Shown piece by piece: positions 29,979 to 59,297 of a stretch of 60,850 nucleotides of DNA. The notes beneath the pieces are model-generated. The model did not search any database, was not told where the DNA came from, and worked only from the letters and a program-made list of their open reading frames with translations. The position numbers and the translations under genes were made by a program. This stretch comes from an uncultured Erysipelotrichaceae bacterium (GTDB taxonomy: Bacteria; Bacillota_I; Bacilli_A; Erysipelotrichales; Erysipelotrichaceae): contig CALVBC010000007.1 in the NCBI GenBank assembly GCA_944325685.1, positions 1-60,850 of the forward strand, read 5' to 3'. Within the stretch, counting starts at the first letter, position 1, and each line of letters begins with the position of its first letter.

Positions 29979-29984
29979 TTGCGC

Positions 29985-30213
29985 ATATCGATGAATAAGA
30001 ATAGTACTTTCAAAAGACTTACAAGCGAGTCCGAGATGGTGGAAGCGGACAGAGGATATGAAAGGAAGCGCTCTTAGGAGGTATATCACGGAACTTAAGT
30101 ATGTGATATCGTTACCCGCGTTAAGGGTTTGAGCAGGTTCGTCTTGTACGAGCAATTAAAGTGGTACCGCGGTCAAAAGTCGTCTTTAGTAATGAAGATG
30201 ACTTTTTTATTTT
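29985..30213 (+). promoter_or_regulatory. T-box riboswitch upstream of an amino-acid ABC importer
   Basis: The T-box sequence AAAGTGGTACCGCGG is at 30158-30172. A terminator with T7 is at 30175-30209. Stem I has the AGTAC of the specifier loop (30003-30007) and the distal loop GATGGTGGAAGCGG. A further hairpin (ATATCAC/GTGATAT) is at about 30084-30110. With lower helix TAAGA/TCTTA and upper helix TTTCA/TGAAA, the specifier loop reads GGAAGCGC, giving GCG (Ala) or, one base on, CGC (Arg). The variable T of TGGT pairs with discriminator A, which fits both. Confidence 0.88.
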
Positions 30214-57889: not shown

Positions 57890-58103
57890 CCTCCTTAAAA
57901 AAATAAAAACTGTGTCTTAGAAACGATCGAAACCGCGGTACCATTCTAATTCACAGTTAATGTGCTCTCTTTAGCTATAACGGGCTTACCCGTAGATAAC
58001 TTCAAGAAGTGAATTCGAGAAATTAAGTCTAGGTCTATTGCAGCTATTAAGACCCTCTCTTTAGACATCCTTCCTGTACTAGTCTTCTTTACTTCGCTTA
58101 TAC
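57890..58103 (-). promoter_or_regulatory. Phe-responsive T-box riboswitch of pheST
   Basis: Minus strand. The T-box sequence GAATGGTACCGCGG is at 57946-57933. The terminator pairs AACTGTG and TTAGAA with TTTCTAA and CACAGT, leaving the T-box in its loop, followed by T5 (to about 57903). In Stem I, AAGAAG pairs with CTTCTT, and the 3' loop CGAATTCA contains specifier TTC (58013-58011), a Phe codon. This matches the downstream gene. Confidence 0.93.
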
Positions 58104-58137: not shown

Positions 58138-58197
58138 GCTTTTCCCTATACAAATCGATGCCTTAGATAGTAAAATAGTTGCATAAGGAGGCATATT

Positions 58198-58791
58198 ATG
58201 AAACTATCCCAACTGATCAAAGTCTACCAAGAAAAGACCGGTTTTAATAAAGCGACGATCGCTAAGACCTTCGGTGTATCGAAAGCGACTGTCGGTCGTT
58301 GGTTGAGCGGTGATATCGAAAGGGTCCAAGAAGAGACATCAGAACGCATGAGTAAGATCTTGGGCGTCAATGTATCAAAGCTCTTAAATGAAGAGATCCC
58401 TGTCTTTAAAAAACCGATCTTAGGGATGGCTAAGGCTGGCTATGATCTTCTACTTCAAGATGATTGGCTAGGGGAAGAAGCTTTGACCTATGATGATTAT
58501 TCCAAAGGTGACTTCTTTTTAAAGGTCATCGGTGATTCGATGATCGGTGAAGGCATCAAAGATGGCGCCTTGGTCTATGTCAAAAAGACTGATAATGTGC
58601 CCAGTGGCAAGATCGCTGTCGTCCAGATCGGTGATGAAGTGACGATCAAGAAGATCATCTACCAAAAGGAGACGATGATCTTAGAAGCCGCTAATCCAAG
58701 TGTCGCCAATCGTTATTTCACCAAGCGTGAGATCAAAGAACTACCGGTCAAGGTCATCGGTCAGGTCATCTATGCCAAGGTCGTCTTTTGA
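58198..58791 (+). CDS. XRE-type HTH regulator with LexA-like S24 autoprotease domain
   Basis: A 197-residue repressor. Residues about 3-60 form an XRE-type helix-turn-helix (NKATIAKTFGVSKATVGRWL). An S24 domain follows: cleavage-type A80-G81 (GMAKAGYD), S114 (VIGDSMIGEGI) and K151 (EVTIKK). The 37-residue Ser-Lys distance equals that of E. coli LexA (119/156). The usual Bacillota LexA has a winged helix, so this is a non-canonical SOS-type repressor. AAGGAGG precedes ATG. It overlaps the SRAP gene by 1 nt. Confidence 0.88.
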   Translation: MKLSQLIKVYQEKTGFNKATIAKTFGVSKATVGRWLSGDIERVQEETSERMSKILGVNVSKLLNEEIPVFKKPILGMAKAGYDLLLQDDWLGEEALTYDDYSKGDFFLKVIGDSMIGEGIKDGALVYVKKTDNVPSGKIAVVQIGDEVTIKKIIYQKETMILEAANPSVANRYFTKREIKELPVKVIGQVIYAKVVF

Positions 58792-59297
58792 TGTGTGGAC
58801 GCTATTTCCTAAAACTTCCTGATACAGCTTTTGGCGAAAAGATCAAAAGAAAGACAAATGAATATTCCCTCTTCTATAAAGAAGGTGAGATCTTTCCCTT
58901 CGATGATGTCCTAGTCTTTATAAGGGATAAAGATCAGATCGATATCAGATCGATGAAATGGGGACTTAAAGAGAAACATCGCATCAACGCTCGCAAAGAA
59001 ACGCTTATAAATACCGACATCTATAAAGGCATGCGACCATGTGTCATCATCGCTAGTGGCTTTTATGAATGGCATCTTAAAAAGAAATACTTCATAAATA
59101 CCGATAGTGAGATCATATACCTCGCCGCCATCTACAACGATGAAGGATTACTCATCATCACGGAAGATAGCTATAAAGACATGTGTGATATCCATGATCG
59201 GATCCCGATCATCTTCAATAATAAAGAGATGCTTGAATATCTATTTCAAGGTGATCTAAAACACATGATGAAAGATATCCAAATAAAAGAGGTGTAG
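58791..59297 (+). CDS. SRAP domain protein (HMCES/YedK family)
   Basis: A 168-residue SRAP protein that, in the family, forms a covalent thiazolidine crosslink with abasic sites in single-stranded DNA through Cys2. The key residues are present: C2 (MCGRYF), N66 (RINARKE), E93 (SGFYEWH) and H135 (DIHDRIP). ATG at 58791 puts Cys at position 2 as required; it overlaps the TGA of the LexA-like gene. It is shorter than typical 200-230-residue members. Confidence 0.92.
   Translation: MCGRYFLKLPDTAFGEKIKRKTNEYSLFYKEGEIFPFDDVLVFIRDKDQIDIRSMKWGLKEKHRINARKETLINTDIYKGMRPCVIIASGFYEWHLKKKYFINTDSEIIYLAAIYNDEGLLIITEDSYKDMCDIHDRIPIIFNNKEMLEYLFQGDLKHMMKDIQIKEV

Follow-up and report, generated by a model that had tools for sequence, protein, structure and literature searches.

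We analysed a 60,850-nucleotide stretch of DNA from an uncultured Erysipelotrichaceae bacterium (positions 1 to 60,850 of contig CALVBC010000007.1; hereafter the window), in which the gene for a predicted self-cleaving repressor (the regulator) is directly followed by a gene encoding an SRAP protein. The window corresponds to contig C7 of a genome (G000) of 1.36 Mb in 31 contigs, with a completeness score of 100%. The regulator gene runs from an ATG at 58198-58200 to a TGA at 58789-58791, and the SRAP gene from an ATG at 58791-58793 to a stop codon at 59295-59297; the regulator TGA and the SRAP ATG have one base in common, and the initial annotation of this DNA had placed this overlap correctly. 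The next gene, from 59301, lies on the opposite strand. Phe-tRNA synthetase genes and a polysaccharide deacetylase gene make up the neighbourhood of the pair.

Residues 73-191 of the regulator matched Peptidase_S24 in Pfam (E=3.8e-20), while the helix-turn-helix (HTH) matches of its N-terminal part (LacI, HTH_31, HTH_3 and others) were all below the Pfam cut-offs. The initial annotation had described an XRE-type HTH joined to an S24 domain that keeps Ala-Gly, Ser and Lys at LexA spacing, and this description held: A80-G81, S114 and K151 are in place, with spacings of 34 and 37 residues. The corresponding spacings in E. coli LexA are 35 and 37. Relatives were compared at 80 named loci, the best 80 of 309 and biased to close relatives, in which genes were assigned by the best-scoring query; they include Erysipelotrichaceae, Solobacterium, Sharpea, Thomasclavelia, Longibaculum and Erysipelothrix. 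G81, S114 and K151 are kept in 81/81 regulators (the window plus the 80 loci, L122 being counted only up to an in-frame stop), and position 80 holds Ala in 64 of them and Gly in the other 17. The L122 homologue (L122:1698-2288), which has this one in-frame stop and lies beside a long dinB frame, was excluded from a 36-row alignment. A structural model of the regulator (pLDDT 84, pTM 0.64) consists of five helices at the N-terminus and an S24 domain rich in beta strands; the N-terminal domain is modelled as helices only, without the winged helix of LexA, and confidence is lowest in loop 80-87, which contains the putative cleavage site. The best fold matches in the PDB were LexA structures, including LexA bound to RecA filaments, with a TM score of up to 0.89 for the S24 domain (by target length) and about 0.57 for the whole chain (by query length). 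Sequence and model together point to an S24 domain with a LexA-like, probably cleavable Ala-Gly bond and a Ser/Lys pair.

The product of the downstream gene matched SRAP (PF02586) with E=1.8e-25 and 90.2 bits against a cut-off of 27.1, and belongs to that family. Its Cys2, Asn66, Glu93 and His135, earlier noted as intact, are invariant in six aligned sequences including that of the window.

The search for a classical LexA that the initial annotation had proposed returned none in this genome. The genome encodes one PF00717 (S24) protein, which is the regulator. No match to the LexA DNA-binding domain (PF01726) was found in the genome, with none in the regulator at E<=0.001, and the sole match to TIGR00498 (LexA) was again the regulator, at 64.1-64.8 bits and below the cut-off of 110.95. 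On these searches a separate LexA was rejected for this genome, and the regulator itself has neither the PF01726 winged helix nor the TIGR00498 score of a canonical LexA. PF01726 is a weak probe, giving only 21.2 bits for the LexA of genome G108, which passes TIGR00498 at 136 bits; controls were matched in four archaea, and 42 of the 73 family matches listed fall in frames of 336-367 residues, presumably HrcA-type repressors. Of 14 control genomes, 6 scored above the TIGR00498 cut-off, as did 4 of 145 genomes of the family (G108, G042, G134 and G068). The G134 match contains stops and that of G068 covers only positions 72-196, corresponding to the S24 portion of the regulator homologue there; in G095 a match spans the full length but stays under the cut-off. 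With 4 of 145 genomes above the cut-off, and with both proteins in G108, LexA is rare in the family rather than absent. The window genome further encodes one RecA and two Y-family polymerases, DinB (L033) and a UmuC-like protein (L034), the gene for the latter being followed by a YolD-like gene whose YolD match is below the cut-off.

GTTGC...GCAAC arms are frequent upstream of regulator homologues, and the element also occurs in the dinB promoter of this genome. From these upstream regions and the dinB promoter a 27-bp palindromic consensus, GTTKCATAA-N9-TTATGMAAC, was set by eye, and the reversed pattern served as control. The genome contains exactly two perfect copies, one over the regulator start codon and the other at G000:C17:40547-40573, 21 bp before dinB and on a different contig from the regulator. 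At <=2 mismatches the pattern matched three places and the control none; at <=3 mismatches the pattern matched four (regulator 0, dinB 0, C29 1 and C27 3 mismatches). The same perfect site before dinB means that SRAP is not the sole predicted target, contrary to the initial annotation, which had the repressor drive a single repair protein. The operator sharing with recA or Y-family polymerase genes that it had asked about was found for dinB and was not found for recA or the UmuC-like gene, and the latter two were rejected as targets here. The one-mismatch copy at G000:C29:43014-43040 (L037) lies just before a gene for a 282-residue HTH-domain protein; it is either a third target or the similar site of that HTH regulator itself.

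Table 1. Positions of the features discussed, in window coordinates unless a locus is named
Feature	Position	Strand	Basis
CI/XRE-type HTH + Peptidase_S24 regulator, predicted self-cleaving repressor, 197 aa	58198..58791	+	sequence, Pfam, residues, model
SRAP (YedK/HMCES-type) gene, 168 aa	58791..59297	+	Pfam, conserved residues
Predicted operator GTTGCATAAGGAGGCATATTATGAAAC over ribosome-binding site and start codon of regulator	58178..58204	+	pattern scan
-10-like hexamer TAAAAT just 5' of operator	58171..58176	+	by inspection
Small all-beta gene after dinB (window genome)	L033:434-721	-	alignment A3
LexA above TIGR00498 cut-off, G108 (regulator also present)	L238:1133-1738	-	TIGR00498
T-box leader before Phe-tRNA synthetase genes, divergent from regulator	57916-58101	-	Rfam RF00230
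Second T-box leader	29982-30190	+	125.4 bits

Regulator homologues were found in 120 of the 145 family genomes. A Y-family polymerase gene is divergent from the regulator in 56 of the 80 loci (dinB in 39, umuC in 17), a small gene takes the divergent position in 17, and 7 have none of the three. Sharpea azabuensis and Longibaculum muris are examples of cultured relatives in which dinB is divergent. SRAP directly follows the regulator in five of the 80 (L117, L118, L119, L120 and L127), and in L120 the order is small gene-dinB pointing away from regulator-SRAP. Across the 145 genomes, SRAP is present in 92, of which 82 also have the regulator. The two genes lie <=2.5 kb apart in 29 genomes, with SRAP directly downstream on the strand of the regulator in 7 (window genome included) and in the divergent direction in 22; in G126 they are about 4 kb apart. 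Judged from these counts, the closeness of regulator and SRAP appears to exceed chance. We annotated 27 of 30 SRAP-linked loci, which were chosen for having SRAP near the regulator; the other three are the window, G045 and G109. The regulator is divergent from dinB-small gene-SRAP in 17 of the 27, from small gene-SRAP in 5 in which dinB was not found, and from SRAP in one; three have regulator-SRAP with a divergent dinB-small gene pair, and one has regulator-SRAP alone. These patterns make SRAP part of a recurring cassette. In the window genome SRAP stands behind the regulator and the dinB-small gene pair is on another contig with its site retained, so that regulator and SRAP together resemble a fragment of the dinB-small gene-SRAP cassette that has been rearranged.

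The small gene, found after dinB or divergent from the regulator, encodes a family of about 73-95 residues in which G, P, C and W are unchanged across 26 sequences, the Trp being Trp81. Its predicted structure is entirely beta (pLDDT 89). The 26 members gave best E values of 0.012 in Pfam and 0.026 in NCBIfam, each for one member and to unrelated families; no PDB fold match was obtained at E<=0.001, and PDB sequence and PHROG searches gave no convincing relative. Stand-alone ImuB-C domains, as characterised by Aravind et al. 2013 (PMC3765255), are proteins of about 80 residues, mostly beta, with a C-terminal Trp and next to DinB. The small protein has all of these features and no convincing sequence match to a described family; it resembles the stand-alone ImuB-C domain and is a candidate member.

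Operator candidates recur in relatives. G045, of the same genus, has a perfect site at the regulator and a site with three mismatches 21 bp before dinB, a distance equal to that in the window genome. A site with <=3 mismatches lies upstream of the regulator in 26 of the 80 loci, against 0.2% of 4000 dinucleotide shuffles and 0/80 coding controls even at <=5 mismatches, a count that is partly circular because several genomes from which the consensus was drawn recur among the 80. A consensus-free scan for palindromes (9-bp arms with >=8/9 paired and a 9-bp spacer) also found 26/80, against 2-6/80 in five shuffles; spacers of 11 and 13 gave 32/80 and 25/80, these being segments of the same extended palindromes, and a number of further spacers were above their shuffles as well. 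Altered arms that keep the symmetry are seen in L154 (TGTGC/GCACA) and L160 (GTAGC/GCTAC). In the SRAP-linked loci, ACTTGAA-N5-TTCAAGT is the best palindrome before the regulator in 14 of 27, and it or a close form occurs twice in 5 of the 10 promoters listed (both raw counts). A second clade (L200-L220) has the same cassette, and some of its promoters carry paired ACTTGAA-N5-TTCAAGT, resembling duplicated phage operators. In L010 and L011, where umuC is divergent, TTATGCAAC direct repeats 11 bp apart replace the palindrome upstream of the regulator.

The regulator is likely of phage ancestry, which is compatible with a present role in SOS. Its best PHROG family is that of phage repressors (phrog_4, residues 2-193, E=3.9e-32), phage repressors match it at about 25-30% identity, and a 75-row tree places five LexA rows apart from all family and phage rows with support 99/96; the tree is midpoint-rooted, with long branches and two rows whose composition is unusual. 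Precedents named in PMC8565304 are the non-canonical LexA of Bacteroidetes, HdiR of Streptococcaceae and UmuDAb of Moraxellaceae. As portrayed there, the HdiR of Lactococcus and Streptococcus is a LexA-like repressor that clusters with phage repressors, acts in hosts without LexA and controls itself and a UmuC gene as a minimal regulon. Like HdiR, the regulator is a phage-type HTH and S24 protein in a genome without LexA, with predicted operators both at its own gene and before a Y-family polymerase gene; unlike in HdiR, with the comparison made by description only, the linked genes here are dinB, SRAP and one for a small all-beta protein. The Bacteroidetes proteins and Acinetobacter UmuDAb (PMC8565304) and Francisella S24 regulators (PMC13148647) are likewise non-canonical S24 repressors tied to DNA-damage genes. 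By the same descriptions, the Bacteroidetes proteins run a canonical SOS regulon and UmuDAb is tied to UmuDC polymerases, in both respects unlike the regulator. With LexA it shares the S24 domain, the spacing of cleavage site, Ser and Lys and a predicted operator at its own gene; it differs in having no modelled winged helix, in scoring below the TIGR00498 cut-off and in that no operator match was found at recA. Aravind et al. 2013 (PMC3765255) described a neighbourhood in which DinB operons contain stand-alone ImuB-C and frequently LexA and SRAP. The repair partners DinB, ImuB-C (here an ImuB-C-like small protein) and SRAP are the same here, whereas the regulator is of the phage-type S24 class, candidate operators were proposed and, in this genome, dinB lies apart from the regulator.

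We consider it probable that this is a minimal SOS circuit of the HdiR kind, run by a phage-type S24 repressor that does the job of LexA. This reading builds on the gene structure, the conserved residues, searches of the genome that found neither a second S24 protein nor a LexA, the palindrome common to regulator and dinB, and the conserved linkage. As predicted from these features, the regulator would bind as a dimer to the 27-bp palindrome over its own translation start and silence itself and the overlapping SRAP gene, and a dimer on the same palindrome before the unlinked dinB-small gene operon would repress that operon. Upon damage, RecA filaments formed on single-stranded DNA would stimulate cleavage at A80-G81 by S114 and K151. 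The lifted repression would then permit synthesis of DinB for lesion bypass, of its small all-beta partner, and of SRAP, which may shield abasic sites in single-stranded DNA; new repressor would shut the circuit off again. The compact SOS module proposed in the initial annotation agrees with the LexA-like residues, the lack of a LexA found here, the polymerase linkage and the dinB site, and has to be widened beyond SRAP as its one target.

Several observations weigh against this circuit. The genome scan and the inspected upstream sequence gave no operator match before recA, so the link to recA of classical SOS is not there. The right arm of the regulator site overlaps ATG-AAA-C, and the match may therefore be partly coincidence; at <=3 mismatches the reversed pattern matches as many places in this genome (four) as the pattern itself. 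Among the relatives, 54 of the 80 loci have >3 mismatches to the consensus. At <=2 mismatches in the 145 family genomes the pattern gave 85 matches and the control 76, in 57/145 and 52/145 genomes, respectively; the exact consensus is thus not enriched across the family, and the case rests on position and perfect matches. G084 and G144, of the same genus and with divergent umuC, have no match at <=2 mismatches, and their promoters carry direct repeats of TTATGCAAC. No regulator homologue was detected in 25/145 family genomes, and SRAP was not found in 3/6 genomes of the genus. G108 and G042 carry both LexA and the regulator, which is therefore not simply the replacement of LexA everywhere.

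The missing site at recA also fits an S24 repressor that answers a cue other than RecA filaments, such as heat, ClpP or a cognate activator, the connection with dinB and SRAP then serving general stress mutagenesis. Streptococcus mutans IrvR has been reported as such a case, and HdiR responds to heat too, according to the account of it in PMC8565304. We regard such a cue as unlikely for the regulator, given G81, S114 and K151 in 81/81 regulators, the linkage to lesion-bypass genes and top fold matches to LexA that include LexA-RecA complexes. That the regulator and SRAP form a self-contained two-gene unit with SRAP as the only target, as first annotated, might be read from the one-base overlap and from the fact that the gene from 59301 is on the opposite strand; this is made highly improbable by the perfect dinB site, the identical 21-bp spacing in G045 and the way these genes are arranged in relatives. 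The phrog_4 match (E=3.9e-32), the identity of about 25-30% to phage repressors and the tree, which groups the regulator with them and apart from LexA, would also suit a domesticated prophage repressor whose closeness to repair genes is incidental. We give this very little credence, with homologues in 120/145 family genomes, Phe-tRNA synthetase and polysaccharide deacetylase genes as neighbours, and a shared site together with repair-gene linkage.

We also modestly favour, taken as a whole, a broader form of the minimal SOS circuit. In most of the Erysipelotrichaceae and allies, a phage-type S24 repressor would run a minimal SOS response over one lesion-bypass cassette, which would comprise a polymerase (DinB or UmuC), a small protein resembling ImuB-C, in many cases SRAP, and the regulator itself. 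Repressor and operator would drift together, the arms of the 27-bp palindrome varying in concert in one clade and ACTTGAA-N5-TTCAAGT palindromes preceding the same genes in another. In the lineage of the window, dinB would have moved and kept its site, the circuit being held by regulation and not by linkage. If true, this would join the cases in which a phage-type repressor has assumed some of the control of the response to DNA damage, here in a bacterial group with many records titled from animal guts, and the predicted operators would make its regulon directly testable. SRAP and DinB would stand jointly under a damage-responsive switch, and the relatives would offer a naturally occurring set of repressors and operators whose sequences seem to change together. 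The parts of the circuit are of known kinds. Limited literature searches gave no description of this regulator group or its operators, and no paper among the matches listed names Erysipelotrich- or Erysipelothrix; as far as these searches reach, the regulator group, the candidate operators and a displaced dinB that retains its site appear to be new.

The window contains two T-box leaders (Table 1). The one before the Phe-tRNA synthetase genes matched RF00230 at E=1.7e-17 when 451 bases were searched, its 78.6 bits falling short of the gathering score (93). An open reading frame start at 57944 overlaps this leader, and the true start is therefore probably further in. The second leader lies elsewhere in the window.
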